Origin: Methanothermococcus sp. SCGC AD-155-M21
Lineage (GTDB): Archaea > AGJL01 > Methanococci > Methanococcales > Methanococcaceae
Length of the DNA stretch: 59,865 nucleotides
Direction of reading: 5' to 3'
Assembly: GCA_019561565.1 (NCBI GenBank)
Contig: JAHEPY010000038.1
Coordinates: 1 to 59,865 of the forward strand
The notes under the pieces are model-generated. The model saw nothing but the letters and a program-made list of their open reading frames with translations. It had not been told where the DNA came from and searched no databases. Below are positions 438 through 15,409 of this stretch, piece after piece (positions within the stretch are counted from its first letter, which is position 1; each line of letters opens with the position of its first letter). The translations under genes and the position numbers were made by a program.

Positions 438-3400
438 ATGTTCTCCAATATCCTCAGGATCTTTAAGAAGAAAAATGATGGCAAAACAGATGAAGAATGG
501 TTCAATGAAGGAGTTGCCCTCTATAATCAGAGAAAATATGAGAAGGCAATAGTATGCTTTGATAAATCTCTAACTATAAAGGAGGATCCTAAGATAAGAA
601 AAATCAGGGACGAAGCTGAGATAAAGTTAAAGGAGAGCATAGTTAGGAAAATAATAGGGGATGCTAAAAGAGTAATTTCACAGATAAAATCCAAATATAA
701 CATTAAAGATGCTGAGAATATTCTATCTCAGGCTGAGGAAGCATTTAAGAAGGGAGAGTATTCTAAAGCAGAGAAATTATCTTTAAAGGCTAAGGAGAAG
801 GCTATTGAAATAGGTAATCAAGCAGAGAAGGCTGAGAAGGCAATAGGGGATGCCAAATCAACAATCTCACAGATAAAATTAGAGTATGATGTTGGAGAGA
901 TTGAATCTTTACTATCTCAGGCGGAGGGGGCATTTAAGAAGGGAGGATATTCCAAAACAGAGGAACTTGCTCTAAAGGCTAAGGATAAGGCTGTAGAAAT
1001 AGGTAATCAGGCAGAGAAGGCTGAGAAGGCAATAGGGGATGCTAAAAAAGTAATTTCTAAGATAAAGTCAGAGTATAATGTTAAAGAGGCTGAGGATACT
1101 CTATCTCAGGCTGAAGAAGCATTCAACAAGGGAGATTATTCTAAATCAGAAAAACTTGCTTTGAAAGCTAAGGAAAAGGCAATTAGTGCGATAGATTATA
1201 TTACATTGTGGGAGTATGTGACGAGTATTGTTTACTCAGTATCAATAACTCCAGATGGGGAGTATATAGTTGCCGGAGGGTTACGTAGTAATGTTTATCT
1301 CTTCAACAGAGGAGGGGAGTTATTGTGGGAGTATGGGACAGATGGTAATGTTGAATCGGTAGCAATAACTCCAGATGGGGAATATATAGTTGCTGGGAGT
1401 CATGATAATCATGTTTACCTCTTCAACAGAGAAGGGAAGTTATTGTGGAAGTATGAAACAGGTGATGATGTTGAATCAGTAGCAATAACTCCAGATGGGG
1501 AATATATTGTTGCAGGAAGTGAGGATGATAATGTTTATCTCTTCAACAGAGAAGGGAAGTTATTGTGGAAGTATAGAATAGATGATGGTGTTTTGTCGAT
1601 ATCAATAACTCCTGATGGAGAGTATATAGTTGCTGGAGGGTTACGTAGTAATGTTTATCTCTTCAACAGAGGAGGGGAGTTATTGTGGAAGTATGGAACA
1701 GGTGATAATGTTTACTCAGTATCAATAACTCCTGATGGAGAGTATATAGTTGCGGGGAGTTGGGATAATCATGTTTATCTCTTCAACAGAGAAGGGAAGT
1801 TATTGTGGAAGTATGGAACAGGTGATAATGTTTACTCAGTATCAATAACTCCTGATGGAGAGTATATAGTTGCGGGGAGTAATGATAAACATATATATCT
1901 CTTCAACAAAGAAGGAGATCTATTGTGGAATTATAGAACAGATGGTAGTGTTTTCTTAGTATCAATAACTCCTGATGGAGAGTATATAGTTGCTGGGAGC
2001 GGACTTAGTATTTACCTCTTTGCCTCATTACATGCAATATCAAAAATAATAGAAAAACTTAAACCAAAAGTAAAACTAATTTACGGCTTAGATAAACTAC
2101 TTGAATCTGCAAAAAAAGAATTTAAAGAGAAAAACTACGATAATACATTACAATACATCAACAAATGTAATGAATTAATTAATAACGCCAAACCAAAATT
2201 AAAAATCAAACTTCTAAATACTTCATACACTTACAATAAATGGGATAAAACTAAAATAGAAATAATAAACGAAGGAGATGCCATAGCAGAGAATATAACA
2301 TTTGAATTCTCAGGAGATCTTACCATAAAAAATCTACCAGAAATTAAAGTTAAACCAAAAAGCAAAGAGAGGGTAGAACTCCTTCTCAAGCCCAGTGCCT
2401 TTGGAGATCTTCCTATGGATATTGACATAAAATGTAAAGATCATTTGAATAATGAACATAAATTCAATGAGACAATAATGCTCAATGTTAGGGAAATAAC
2501 AGGAATAACTCCAACTCCAGAAACTCCAGAGAAAGGAATATCTCCATCAGAATTCACTCCAAAGCCAACAACTCCAAAAACCTTCCCTAATGAACTCTCA
2601 GAAAAATACTTAGAAGTAGAATTCATAGGAAAGGGAGGATTTGCAAGGGTATTCAAGGCAAAGCGTAAAGATGGAAAAGAAGTAGCAGTAAAGATACCAA
2701 TCTCATTGGATGAATCCACAGGAAAATCCTTCCTTAAGGAGATAGAGAATTGGACTAAGTTAAACCACAACAACATTGTAAAGATCTACAATTACAACAT
2801 CCTACCAATTCCCTACTTTGAAATGGAGTTATGTGATAAATCATTGGCAGATCTAAGGAAACCCTTAGATATAGAAAAGGCAACATGGATCATATTCAAC
2901 ATAGCAGAGGGATTAAAATATGCCCATTCCAAAAAGATCCTACATAGAGATTTAAAGCCTCAAAACATCCTACTTAAAGATGGCATTCCAAAAATCAGTG
3001 ATTGGGGATTAAGTAAGGTTATGACAGAATCCTCCTCGGCAACTACAACTAAGGCATTCACGCCCTACTATGCCTCTCCAGAACAGATAGAGGGTAAAAG
3101 TACAGATAAAAGAACAGATATATGGCAATTAGGAGTAATATTCTATGAACTTATCACTGGAGAACTTCCATTCAAGGGAGAGAGTTTTGTCCAGATAGGA
3201 ATGGCTATTGCCACAAAGGATCCAGTTAAACCTTCAGAGATCAATCCAGAGGCAAAGGAAGTTGAAAAAATAATAATGAAGTGTTTAGAAAAGGATAAAA
3301 CAAAGCGTTATCAATCTGTTGGAGAATTACAAAGGGATCTATCCAATTACTTAGGAATAAAATATAAAGAATCCTTAAAATTAAGTGTAAGTAGAAAGGA

Positions 3401-3644
3401 CTTCAAGAGATCAGCCTACTATTGCTGTGATCTTCTTCTATTAAATATGAAGATTAACAACATGGTAGAGGCTTACAAATATACCTCAGATCTATTGAAT
3501 TACACTGAGGGAGAGACTAAACAAGAAATTAAAAATTTACATGAGCATTTAGAGTATAGGATAGAACATAAAATAGAAAATATCCCAGAGGAACTAATCG
3601 AAATGGCTGAGGTTATAGTTCATAAAATAAAAATAGGATTTTAA
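438..3644 (+). CDS. Multidomain eukaryotic-like Ser/Thr protein kinase with TPR-like, beta-propeller and CARDB-like regions
   Basis: A 1068-residue protein likely to act as a cytoplasmic signalling kinase; substrate unknown. Order of parts: a TPR-like start (residues about 18-50); three or four helical repeats of about 60 residues with an LSQAEEAFKKGEYSK core (about 58-255); seven 40-residue blades sharing ITPDGEYIVAG and VYLFN (about 267-532), which fits a closed seven-bladed propeller; a helical spacer; a CARDB-like beta domain (about 586-684); a Pro/Thr-rich linker; a Hanks-type kinase domain (about 722-975); and a helical tail. Kinase landmarks are the glycine loop GKGGFARVFKA, Lys752 in VAVKI, catalytic HRDLKPQN (His836, Asp838), the metal motif as DWG (Asp855) instead of DFG, and an APE-like segment ASPEQ. 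There is no membrane segment or signal peptide. Start ATG has only a weak upstream ribosome site. Known: Hanks kinases occur in archaea; what this propeller senses is inference. Confidence 0.85.
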   Translation: MFSNILRIFKKKNDGKTDEEWFNEGVALYNQRKYEKAIVCFDKSLTIKEDPKIRKIRDEAEIKLKESIVRKIIGDAKRVISQIKSKYNIKDAENILSQAEEAFKKGEYSKAEKLSLKAKEKAIEIGNQAEKAEKAIGDAKSTISQIKLEYDVGEIESLLSQAEGAFKKGGYSKTEELALKAKDKAVEIGNQAEKAEKAIGDAKKVISKIKSEYNVKEAEDTLSQAEEAFNKGDYSKSEKLALKAKEKAISAIDYITLWEYVTSIVYSVSITPDGEYIVAGGLRSNVYLFNRGGELLWEYGTDGNVESVAITPDGEYIVAGSHDNHVYLFNREGKLLWKYETGDDVESVAITPDGEYIVAGSEDDNVYLFNREGKLLWKYRIDDGVLSISITPDGEYIVAGGLRSNVYLFNRGGELLWKYGTGDNVYSVSITPDGEYIVAGSWDNHVYLFNREGKLLWKYGTGDNVYSVSITPDGEYIVAGSNDKHIYLFNKEGDLLWNYRTDGSVFLVSITPDGEYIVAGSGLSIYLFASLHAISKIIEKLKPKVKLIYGLDKLLESAKKEFKEKNYDNTLQYINKCNELINNAKPKLKIKLLNTSYTYNKWDKTKIEIINEGDAIAENITFEFSGDLTIKNLPEIKVKPKSKERVELLLKPSAFGDLPMDIDIKCKDHLNNEHKFNETIMLNVREITGITPTPETPEKGISPSEFTPKPTTPKTFPNELSEKYLEVEFIGKGGFARVFKAKRKDGKEVAVKIPISLDESTGKSFLKEIENWTKLNHNNIVKIYNYNILPIPYFEMELCDKSLADLRKPLDIEKATWIIFNIAEGLKYAHSKKILHRDLKPQNILLKDGIPKISDWGLSKVMTESSSATTTKAFTPYYASPEQIEGKSTDKRTDIWQLGVIFYELITGELPFKGESFVQIGMAIATKDPVKPSEINPEAKEVEKIIMKCLEKDKTKRYQSVGELQRDLSNYLGIKYKESLKLSVSRKDFKRSAYYCCDLLLLNMKINNMVEAYKYTSDLLNYTEGETKQEIKNLHEHLEYRIEHKIENIPEELIEMAEVIVHKIKIGF
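1240..2025 (+). repeat. Seven ~120-bp tandem repeats encoding propeller blades
   Basis: Seven in-frame units of about 120 bp each encode one blade. Several are nearly identical in DNA: the stretch around 1276-1327 in blade 1 recurs around 1636-1687 in blade 4, and blades 5 and 6 share long identical runs. Such DNA-level identity points to recent duplication or gene conversion, not only protein-level selection. Confidence 0.8.
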
Positions 3645-4624: not shown

Positions 4625-4960
4625 AATTTCACCAAAAAAATAAAAAATAATTTAAAATAAAAAAATAAAATATAAAAATATAATGTTTTTTTAAATAAAA
4701 AAAGTTTTGTGGGTAATTTAAAATTCTTATTTTTTATTTTTATAGGGATATGTTGCTTCTTTAATTTATAGGTTTTGTTTCATTTTCTTGTAAATGATCT
4801 ATTTTAATTGGAATTTTTCTTATTTTTAGTATGTGCGTATATATTCTTTTATTGAAATTAATTAATATTAAAAAATAAAAAATTTAAAAAAATATTTTTT
4901 TTAATTTTAAGATTTTAATTAACAGTTTTTCTTTTATTATAATGGAAAAAAAAGAGGAAT

Positions 4961-5189
4961 GTTTCCATTCCACAAACTCAAAATATCCCACTATCTCAAA
5001 ATTCCTTTGGAATTTTTACGATTTACTCGCTTCGATCGTAAATGGTCTGGTTTTAACCTTAGCAATGAATGTTGCTAAACTAAACTTTATCTAGTTTCCA
5101 TCCCACAATGGTCTGATTTTAACACGGTTAGAATAGCCTTATTTATTATCCCATTTTTTGTTTCCATCCCACAATGGTCTGATTTTAAC
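4961..5189 (-). CRISPR. Small CRISPR locus 1: two intact 30-nt repeats plus a distal repeat split by an insert
   Basis: Two identical 30-nt repeats lie at 5094-5123 and 5160-5189 (plus strand GTTTCCATCCCAC + AATGGTCTGATTTTAAC). The spacers are 36 nt each (5058-5093, 5124-5159). The left-most unit, 4961-5057, starts as GTTTCCATTCCAC and ends as AATGGTCTGGTTTTAAC but has about 67 extra bases in the middle, including AAAATTCC..GGAATTTT and TTTACGA..TCGTAAA inverted repeats. By archaeal convention (GTTAAAATC at the leader side, ..GGAAAC at the spacer side) the locus reads on the minus strand with its leader to the right. No cas genes lie in the window. Confidence 0.8.
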
Positions 5190-5545
5190 ATTAAAAGGTA
5201 TTATTGTAGTAGGTATTTTTGCTTTTATTTCTTCTTATATTATACTTTATATAATTAATAAAATTATAAAGTTTAGAACCAACGAAGAAAATTAAATTGA
5301 AGGACTTGATATAATAGAGTGTGGAATTGAAAGTTATCCAGAGTTTAAAAGGACATTTTAGTCCTTTTTACATCTTTTTTTAAAAAATTTCTGCCATATA
5401 AAACCTTAATCTTACTTAATAACCCCGTCTATAATATCTTCTATTACCATAACACAGGATAAAAGCTAAAGGGAGAAGATAGATGAAATAGCTCTTATAC
5501 CAACCTCCCTTAACATAACATCAATAAAAGTAAGTATAAAAATGT
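5190..5545. other. Region beside CRISPR locus 1; possible gene tail, no intact gene
   Basis: Immediately right of the last repeat, one plus-strand frame (5191-5295) reads as a hydrophobic helix (KGIIVVGIFAFISSYIILYI) followed by a charged end (NEEN, stop), like the C-terminus of a membrane protein. It has no start of its own. An inverted repeat with AAAAGGAC and GTCCTTTT near 5348-5367 followed by T-runs could be a terminator. Nothing recognisable from 5400 to 5545. Confidence 0.3.
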
Positions 5546-6058
5546 TTATTTAATCGATCCAATCTCTTTATCTTTAATCGATCCAATCTTTCTATCTACC
5601 ATAAATAGACCGCGCCCTTCTAATCCTACCATATTTATTTTATCTAATATAGATTTAAACAGTTTTTCTTCTTCACGTTGCTCTTCAACATACCACTGCA
5701 AAAAGTTAAAAGTTCCAAAATCTTTTTCCGATAAAGAAAGTTCTACAAGCTCATGGATACGAGATGTTACTACCTTTTCATGTTTATAAGCAGTTTCAAA
5801 AACATGTTTTAAGTCTTTAAATTCTGATTCCGGTTTTTCAATAGCATCAATAATTGGTAATGCATCAATGTCTTGAATATAATCAAAAAATTTTTCCATA
5901 TGTCCCATTTCTTCTGCTGCATGATTTCTTAAAAATTTAGCAGATCCTTCAAATCCTTCATGATTGCACCATGCACTCATTTGCAAATATACATTAGCAG
6001 AATAAAACTCAACCACCATTTGCTCATTTAACTTTTTTAGTAACTTTTCACTTAACAT
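5546..6058 (-). CDS. ftnA: Bacterial-type non-haem ferritin (FtnA-like)
   Basis: A 170-residue four-helix ferritin subunit that would oxidise Fe(II) and store iron in a 24-mer shell. Ferroxidase residues are present at the same numbers as in E. coli FtnA: Glu17, Glu50, His53, Glu94 and Gln127. The C-terminus carries a short duplicated IGSIKDKE unit, caused by a 24-bp tandem repeat at 5550-5589. The gene lies between two CRISPR loci and uses codons rare in its neighbours (CGC, CGT, CTG), so acquisition from a bacterium is likely. The start ATG follows AAAGGAG at good spacing. A perfect palindrome and TATA box upstream suggest regulated expression; iron or oxidative stress control is inference. 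Confidence 0.92.
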   Translation of the reverse strand: MLSEKLLKKLNEQMVVEFYSANVYLQMSAWCNHEGFEGSAKFLRNHAAEEMGHMEKFFDYIQDIDALPIIDAIEKPESEFKDLKHVFETAYKHEKVVTSRIHELVELSLSEKDFGTFNFLQWYVEEQREEEKLFKSILDKINMVGLEGRGLFMVDRKIGSIKDKEIGSIK

Positions 6059-6082
6059 TTTTTCTCCTTTATTTTTTTATTA

Positions 6083-6101
6083 AAGGTCAATAATTGACCT
6101 T
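6083..6101. promoter_or_regulatory. Perfect 19-bp palindrome, probable operator of the ferritin gene
   Basis: AAGGTCAAT-A-ATTGACCTT is a perfect inverted repeat with 9-bp arms. It lies between a minus-strand TATA-like element (about 6104-6117, TTTAAATATAAG) and the ferritin ribosome site, so it would cover the transcription start. A repressor binding here would block initiation. The regulator is unknown; the sequence is not a clear match to the DtxR/MDR1 box as I remember it. Confidence 0.6.
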
Positions 6102-6159
6102 AAAAACTTATATTTAAAAAATTTTTTTTTGTCAATGATAATTTATCAATATTTATGCA

Positions 6160-6697
6160 GTTTCCATCCCACTATCTCAAAATTCCTTCGGAATTTTTAC
6201 GATTTACTCCCTTCGCTCGTAAATGGTCTGATTTTAACTTGCTCATATTGCATGACGTAAATGGAACAGAACTCCGCTTCGCTCGTAAATGGTCTGATTT
6301 TAACTTATGAAGGTAATAAAGTAAAATTATACACTTATAAGCTTCGCTCGTAAATGGTCTGATTTTAACCTGATGTGTATTGATGAAGAGGAAGTATATG
6401 CCTTGAGCTTCGCTCGTAAATGGTCTGATTTTAACGTGCATTCTTGTATCATCTCTTCCAATATCTCCTCAGCTTCGCTCGTAAATGGTCTGATTTTAAC
6501 TAAAATCAGGGATAAATCATACCATGTGTTTGGTTGGCTTCGCTCGTAAATGGTCTGATTTTAACGGGGAAGGCATTGGAGCCACTGTTGGATCATTCTC
6601 GGCTTCGCTCGTAAATGGTCTGATTTTAACAAATCACAGTGAAGAAACCTTTAAGAATTACGAGTATGGCTTCGCTCGTAAATGGTCTGATTTTAAC
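6160..6697 (-). CRISPR. CRISPR locus 2: eight repeat units with a chimeric 29-nt repeat, seven spacers
   Basis: Seven identical 29-nt repeats (plus strand GCTTCGCTCGTAAA + TGGTCTGATTTTAAC) start at 6276, 6341, 6407, 6472, 6537, 6602 and 6669. Spacers are 36-38 nt (37, 36, 37, 36, 36, 36, 38). The left-most unit is 79 bp (6160-6238): GTTTCCATCCCAC, a 49-bp insert (6173-6221), then AATGGTCTGATTTTAAC. That is the 30-nt repeat of locus 1 split after base 13. The other repeats equal the right-hand part of this split unit. The leader is to the right, so the split unit is the oldest. No cas genes nearby. Confidence 0.9.
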
Positions 6698-6744
6698 AGA
6701 TGGGAATTTTTCTTATTTTACTATAAAGAAGGTTGTATCTTCTC

Positions 6745-6762
6745 CTATATAAACTTTTCTAT
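6745..6762 (-). promoter_or_regulatory. Putative CRISPR locus 2 leader promoter
   Basis: Read on the minus strand, AAAAGTTTATATAGGAGA forms a BRE/TATA-like element about 50 bp to the right of the last repeat. Its direction would transcribe the array from the leader end. A second TATA-like TTTATATAG lies near 6790-6800. The rest of 6698-7136 is A/T-rich with no credible gene and is the candidate leader. Confidence 0.5.
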
Positions 6763-7136
6763 CTCGAATCTATAATAAGGACACTTCTATATAAAGACCT
6801 GCGACTTGATAATCCTCCTTATTTTAAACCATATAACCCTAAAGTAAATTAAATAAAATAAATAAAGAAAAATCATAAGGAAAACACAATAAACCCAAAT
6901 AAATTTCTCTAATTAACCCAAATCTCAATAAATTATTAAATCTAAATATATAAAACAACCACAACCCACAACCGATATGAGATCAAAAATCCTACATTAT
7001 TTTAATATTTAACAACTTAAAAAAAAACCTTAAAAATAAAACTAAGGCCATATCTAAGGGTATTTTTTTATTACATTAAAATATATAAATAAAATTAAAA
7101 AATTATTTTAAAATAAAAAATAACCCTCCTAAGAAA

Positions 7137-14278: not shown

Positions 14279-15409
14279 TTATTTAAAGGAATAGAACTCA
14301 GTTTTTCCAGTTTTTTTATCTACTAACACTATGGTTCTTTCAGTACAGGATACACAGGGATCTATTGAGATATAGGTTGTAACAGCATCTGAAACTGTAG
14401 GGCATGTTTTCAACATGTATTTATAGGCTTCAAGATTCATAACTGAGGGACTTCTAATTATTATCCTTTTAATTATCCCCCCATCTGTTAAGGATATTTT
14501 ATAGGTAACTTCCCCCCTATGGGCTTCATTTTTCCATTCCCCAGATCCTCCCTTTATATGGGCCTTATTCCTCACTACCCCCGTACTTTCCTGATAAAGT
14601 TCAAGTATTTTCTCTATTAAATCAATACTTGCAAATATCTCCTTTATCCTAACCAATGTCCTGGCTGAGTTATCCCCCTCTTCAGCCCATACAGGTTTAA
14701 ATTTAAGTTCCTTATAGGTAGGATGTCTCAATCTCCAATCACTTTCAGGCAATGCAGAGGCTCTGGCTATAGGCCCAACAGCCCTTGTTTTCATTACTTC
14801 TTTGTATCCGATAACACCAACGCCCCTACCCCTCAAATTTATCAAAGGGCCAGTATTATATATCTCTAATATATTTTTCATATCATTTCTAAGTTCTTCC
14901 AATTTTTTATATATTTTGTCAATCATCTCCTTATTTATGTCCTGTCTAACTCCCCCAACTACATTAAACCCCATATTGATTCTATTTCCAGTTATAGTCT
15001 CCAATAAATCCATTACATGTTCCCTGGTATTTAGACACCATATTCCAAATGTTTCATGTTCAATGGCCAATCCATAAACTGAAATGGCTATTAAATGGCT
15101 ATGGATTCTTTCAAGTTCTGTGGTAAGGACTCTTAAATACCTTGCTTTATCTGGAACTTCAATGTTGGATATATGTTCAATACACTCTGCAAAGGTCCAG
15201 GTATGGATATAGGAGCAAATACCACATACCCTTTCAGCAAGATGTATTCCTTTTAAATAATGTTTTCCTTCCATAATTTTTTCAATACCTCTATGGACAT
15301 ATCCCATTTCAATTTCTGCCCCTAATACAGTTTCCCCTTCAACTATAAGTTTTATACGTATGGGCTCTTTAAATATTGGATTTATTGGTCCTATGGGAAC
15401 TACGTTCAT
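14279..15409 (-). CDS. ehaO: Eha [NiFe] hydrogenase large subunit
   Basis: A 376-residue catalytic subunit that holds the NiFe centre. The four cysteine ligands are in RVCGIC (Cys62, Cys65) and DPCVSC (Cys352, Cys355), the pattern of energy-converting (group 4) hydrogenases, which lack the cleaved C-terminal extension. NuoD-like features such as [17 protein letters not shown] and GGVRQDI are present. Eha couples ion flux to ferredoxin reduction with H2, replenishing intermediates of CO2 reduction in hydrogenotrophic methanogens (established for Methanococcus). The start ATG follows GTGATATT. It sits between ehaN and the polyferredoxins. Confidence 0.95.

Follow-up and report, generated by a model that had tools for sequence, protein, structure and literature searches.

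How does an array of clustered regularly interspaced short palindromic repeats (CRISPR) come to carry a repeat of which one half belongs to the common repeat of its genome and the other half to a piece of inserted DNA? The question is raised by positions 6160-6697 of the window, the 59,865-nucleotide stretch analysed here, which is contig C38 of a deep-sea methanogen genome of the genus Methanothermococcus (SCGC AD-155-M21, here G000; 922 kb, 98 contigs, 54.7% complete). The assembly is fragmented and of the single-amplified-genome (SAG) type; six CRISPR loci have been reported for SAG M21, together with a cas cluster that it has in common with SAG C09 (PMC8417812). A sequence-only reading of the window had proposed that the repeat was rewritten after an insertion into it. 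Having compared the locus with the congeners G017, G010 and G016 and with G021, a genome of a different genus, we consider it very likely that DNA was inserted in a CRISPR repeat, that a ruler then placed the second cut of spacer acquisition within the insert, and that a chimeric repeat was copied onward.

A split repeat and seven chimeric repeats

Coordinates are those of the plus strand of the window; the parts of the array are read on the minus strand, and the sense of the CRISPR RNA (crRNA) is the reverse of the plus strand. The array comprises the following features.

6160..6238, minus strand: split CRISPR repeat of founder type, a 30-nt repeat broken by 49 bp (units of this kind number six in this genome and about 11 in G017)
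6174..6222, no strand: 49-bp inserted element, ATCTCAAAATTCC...CTCGTAA (the exact interval common to five copies outside CRISPR in G021)
6276..6304, minus strand: chimeric repeat 1, oldest (repeat comparison)
6341..6369, minus strand: chimeric repeat 2 (repeat comparison)
6407..6435, minus strand: chimeric repeat 3 (repeat comparison)
6472..6500, minus strand: chimeric repeat 4 (repeat comparison)
6537..6565, minus strand: chimeric repeat 5 (repeat comparison)
6602..6630, minus strand: chimeric repeat 6 (repeat comparison)
6669..6697, minus strand: chimeric repeat 7, newest, adjoining the leader (repeat comparison and leader census)
6698..7000, minus strand: leader with a TATA-like GTTTATATAGGAG box (conserved beside other arrays here and in G017)

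The unit at 6160-6238 reads GTTTCCATCCCAC(T), then the 49 bp, then ATGGTCTGATTTTAAC, and the repeat so interrupted is the ordinary type I-B 30-mer GTTTCCATCCCACWATGGTCTGATTTTAAC, of which the genome holds more than 80 uninterrupted copies. The break, previously put after base 13, can equally well be written after base 14, because that base is A or T in ordinary repeats; since it varies in split units in the same way, the element proper is ATCTC...GTAA, 49 bp long. The two hairpins earlier seen in it come down to one strong hairpin (AAAATTCC/GGAATTTT) and a weaker inverted repeat (TTACGA/TCGTAA), with a DNA fold z of -2.5. The seven leader-side repeats are, as had been described, identical 29-mers, GCTTCGCTCGTAAATGGTCTGATTTTAAC, made of the leader-side half of the repeat and the leader-side end of the insert, and the unique spacers of 36-38 nt between these regular direct repeats are those of a CRISPR array. 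In crRNA sense the ordinary repeat reads GTTAAAATCAGACCATWGTGGGATGGAAAC and the chimera GTTAAAATCAGACCATTTACGAGCGAAGC. For the seven window spacers, neither 36 genomes of the order nor a phage collection yielded a convincing protospacer.

At 14 loci in two genomes, this one and G017, the same flank (TTTTACTATAAAGAAGGTTGTATCTTCTCC and beyond) lies directly to the right of the repeats. In crRNA sense, a TATA-like box precedes the first repeat by about 50 bp, so that a promoter-like element in a conserved leader accompanies the newest repeat. This conservation bears out a leader on the right rather than the left; 6669-6697 is the repeat added last, and 6160-6238 is the oldest of the units, as the sequence-only reading had assumed.

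Leader-side copying and its alternatives

Across the 14 leader-adjacent positions we counted seven ordinary 30-mers, four lone split units without a spacer and three chimeric repeats. Besides the seven chimeric copies in the window, one lies at C2 of the same genome (14443-14471), adjoining a split unit (14328-14406), and one in G017, where near 15,400 of C72 a decayed split unit precedes a spacer of 36 bp and an exact copy of 32 nt; alignment of this decayed unit to the canonical split unit scores 79, against -3.3 +/- 7.5 in shuffles. In all three arrays the chimeric repeats copy, without a break, the leader-side end of a split unit, those of the window being one base off their present parent, and a copied 79-bp unit was found in none of the arrays of the two genomes. 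Each of the three leader-adjacent split units to which spacers were added thus gave short chimeras, and none was copied whole: whenever a split unit in this position served for acquisition, the outcome was a leader-side copy of about 30 nt. The copy runs from the leader-repeat border for a roughly fixed length (28-32 nt in the three arrays), whatever sequence lies downstream. Chimeric copying by a ruler, as first proposed from the window, is therefore largely supported, C2 and C72 providing two further independent chimeric duplications. The simple history of one insertion followed by seven acquisitions should be widened, since there are many split units, most of them terminal repeats, and array collapse or conversion probably brought them to the leader.

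The sole chimeric-repeat spacer of C2 (L009:14407-14442) matches, with three to six mismatches, chromosomal repeats of beta-helix (NosD-like) surface proteins in this genome and its relatives (L115, L116, L117, L118, L119 and L120; upstream bases CCG or CCA), and is possibly self-derived.

Several observations weigh against ruler copying. In the unit at 6160 as it now stands, CCTTCGCTCG takes the place of the daughters' GCTTCGCTCG, leaving 28 nt in common and not the 29 of the sequence-only reading: on the plus strand, this parent unit carries C and all seven daughters G, and the syntenic G017 unit also has C. To account for the mismatch, either the parent must have changed or been converted later, or the first 29-mer must have been imported. 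Indicators of the length of the duplicon also conflict, with 28 from the unit period, 29 from the invariant core, 30 from C2 and 32 from C72. Finally, no cas1 was found in the 54.7%-complete assembly.

Conversion of the parent is a possible source of the C/G mismatch, and the 6160 unit is identical to C2:37707 over 73 bp. The stretch common to parent and daughter measures 28 nt for the 6160 unit, 30 nt in C2 and 32 nt in C72. The unit period points to a duplicon of 28, because the chimeric spacers would then have ordinary length (p 0.87, versus 0.03 for 29 and 0.0001 for 30). Along the window array, the base that adjoins the 29-mer is successively C, A, A, A, G, G and G, an inheritance-like pattern (chance 0.08), and the corresponding base at C2 mismatches ten homologous chromosomal sequences, which suggests a duplicon of 30. 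The length appears to fall somewhere within 28-32.

In E. coli, the last repeat base is derived from the protospacer-adjacent motif. Such a base was rejected as the main cause of the C/G mismatch, as the last base is inherited along ordinary arrays (A, A, then seven T at L081 of G010; 12 G, then 46 A at L076 of G017); that the spacer base beside ordinary repeats is not constant also counts against it. The shifts at L081 and L076, once made, were passed on, and form a clean record of templated repeat duplication.

The length of the copy might be set mainly by local sequence, through a cut after a GAARC-like end, and not by a ruler, which we judge rather unlikely. The ends GGAAAC (ordinary), CGAAGC (window and C2) and GGGAAC (C72) are all near-matches, and five of the eight handle bases match at nt 29; the chance of such a match is not small, however (0.05 there, 0.15 for 29-31), other purine-rich ends in the insert, such as CCGAAGG farther on, went unused, and the lengths cluster at 28-32. 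Somewhat less probable again is a single origin of the chimera in this genome, perhaps beside the C2 split unit, after which recombination between arrays carried it to the window array, where later acquisitions copied it. The C2 parent has the G of the window daughters, which the window parent lacks, and base-14 A/T variants alternate in arrays, hinting at exchange. Yet the leader of the window is of native type, as at the syntenic G017 C109, and not of C2 type; the separate event at G017 C72 shows recurrence; and ruler copying would in any case remain the underlying mechanism.

Far less credible, and strongly disfavoured, is the reading of the 29-mer as an older CRISPR repeat family in its own right, with the split unit a recombinational fusion of it with the 30-mer. 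Perfectly uniform 29-mers and a founder with C against G would come naturally to such a family, but the 29-mer core is found elsewhere only inside split units, about 17 full 79-bp units in two genomes carry the distal hairpin and the far repeat half, the insert alone is present in G021, and the single copies at C2 and C72 were made from adjoining split units. In a scan of 85,000 species genomes, from which this genome was possibly missing, the 22-nt core of the 29-mer was absent except inside the split units of one congener; a widespread old family, which would have undone the sequence-only reading, thus did not appear. Least probable of all, a chimera of amplification or assembly would suit a fragmented, 55% complete assembly of SAG type, but would hardly account for seven different spacers set between identical chimeric repeats in direct orientation, for the recurrence of that chimeric repeat on another contig or for split units in a congener whose SAG is independent.

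The inserted element, the handle and neighbouring features

All six split units of this genome lie within CRISPR repeats and are broken at the same point, and in G017 the contexts examined are trailer-terminal or leader-adjacent repeats. The five G021 copies, some with flanks in common, lie outside CRISPR, and beyond these three genomes the element was found in no other of the 36 of the order; in the viral contigs searched, neither it nor the 29-mer was found. The 30-mer, present in more than 300 copies across congeners, occurs in G010 and G016 as ordinary repeats only, without the insert. To judge from the genomes compared, the 30-mer is thus the ancestral state and the element a later addition. 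The ends of the insert have no clear terminal inverted repeats by eye, and any target duplication is at most 1 bp (A). After split units, whether trailer-terminal or mid-array, ordinary repeats come next, as expected if the element reached these places once those repeats existed.

The handle is changed in the chimera, as had been claimed, with its sequences corrected: the 8 nt would be AGCGAAGC as against the ordinary ATGGAAAC, identical at five of eight bases, while the Cas6-binding 5' part (nt 1-12) of the predicted crRNA is unchanged. In G017, type I-B genes for Cas7/Cst2, a Cas5b-like protein, Cas3, Cas4, Cas1b and Cas6 adjoin an array of this repeat family. A PF10040 search for Cas6 gave no match in this genome or in G017; as it misses the G017 Cas6 that TIGR01877 finds, its blank says nothing on absence of Cas6.

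To the left of the array lie four further features.

4961..5057, minus strand: second split unit, trailer-terminal, with the left junction partly duplicated (repeat comparison)
5094..5123, minus strand: ordinary 30-nt repeat (repeat comparison)
5160..5189, minus strand: ordinary 30-nt repeat (repeat comparison)
5546..6058, minus strand: ferritin-like gene that parts the trailer side of the locus from its leader side (named by sequence reading, not family search)

The segment with the ferritin-like gene (5190-6159) parts 4961-5189 from 6160-6697 in what is seemingly one CRISPR locus, and G017 has a matching ferritin arrangement (C109:129-1098), with a split unit on either side, so that the segment resembles a 970-bp 'spacer'. 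A partial extra copy of the left junction (GTTTCCATCCTACAATCTCAAAATATCCCACTATCTC...) occurs in several terminal split units (L010:17680-17780, window 4961-5000, L075 and L077). The trailer flank at 4753-4832 can be aligned with a decayed split unit joined to leader sequence (local score 77, against a shuffle maximum of 52); conserved trailers may thus be what is left of older arrays that collapsed. Elsewhere in the window, 438-3644 encodes a 1068-aa protein with, by sequence reading only, TPR-like helices, beta-propeller repeats and a Ser/Thr protein kinase domain, unusual for a methanogen.

Proposed mechanism and known systems

We propose that a 49-bp hairpin element would have entered CRISPR repeats of a Methanothermococcus lineage, separating two mid-repeat positions that in Haloarcula type I-B are anchors of the adaptation complex. 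A split unit would have reached the leader through array collapse or conversion, and Cas1-Cas2(-Cas4), the presumed enzymes, would still cut its leader-repeat border. A ruler from the leader side would set the second cut about 30 bp off, now within the insert, and each new spacer would copy a chimera of the first 16 nt of the old repeat and about 13 nt of insert, which would then be the template in every later acquisition. The four lone split units, lying between trailer and leader, are consistent with collapse by recombination of terminal and leader-adjacent repeats, and regrowth from a lone split unit after such a collapse is the likely history of the window array.

For H. hispanica type I-B, published work places the anchors at nt 11-15 and 18-22 (GTGGG) and Cas6 binding at nt 1-12, and gives the last 8 nt as the 5' handle, which bind Cas5 (PMC9458426). 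GTGGG is conserved here at nt 18-22, and the element, after nt 16, has moved this second anchor by 49 bp. A second cut measured from GTGGG near the far end is not what the arrays record, the 79-bp unit never having been duplicated. With anchor 2 displaced by 49 bp and copies of 28-32 nt, not 79, the distance from the leader-side cut or from anchor 1 would be decisive; we infer that a leader-side ruler of about 30 bp, and not anchor 2, sets the second cut, for which anchor 2 would be dispensable. More tentatively, hybrid-repeat families might be born in one step, an inter-anchor element being part-captured by the Cas1-Cas2 ruler and the repeat with its new handle functioning and propagating, with anchor 2 unneeded.

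The locus amounts to a natural repeated experiment, in which 49 bp between the anchors show which part of the repeat sets the type I-B second cut, and it offers a route for abrupt change of repeat sequence. In cells bearing both ordinary and hybrid repeats, the tolerance of Cas6 and Cascade for the handle is directly testable.

Ruler control of repeat length by Cas1-Cas2 is established from small laboratory indels in types I-E, I-B and II-A, experiments reviewed and extended in one account (PMC6895254). There, as here, the second integration falls at a measured distance, and when the repeat is altered the copy shifts and takes in foreign or spacer bases; the type II-A indels of that account were of 1-3 bp and made in the laboratory, whereas here a natural 49 bp gave a hybrid repeat kept through at least seven acquisitions. 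With H. hispanica type I-B the locus shares the position of GTGGG and, in a congener, the cas subtype; unlike there, anchor 1 is GACCA and not AACCC, and acquisition continued from a unit whose anchor 2 is displaced (PMC9458426). Array collapse through recombination of terminal and leader-adjacent repeats has been proposed generally, and the lone split units of G017 between trailer and leader look collapsed in this way, but the surviving terminal repeat here bears an insertion, so that regrowth alters the repeat (PMC8047081). Insertion sequences in CRISPR-Cas loci are likewise mobile or dispersed DNA entering a CRISPR locus; those reported lie in cas genes, whereas here a tiny non-coding element sits in repeats and the array went on growing (PMC10359306). 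A search of the open-access literature turned up no account of an array whose repeat had been changed by a natural insertion, and the finding is a natural, recurrent case of the known ruler process, with a large insertion.
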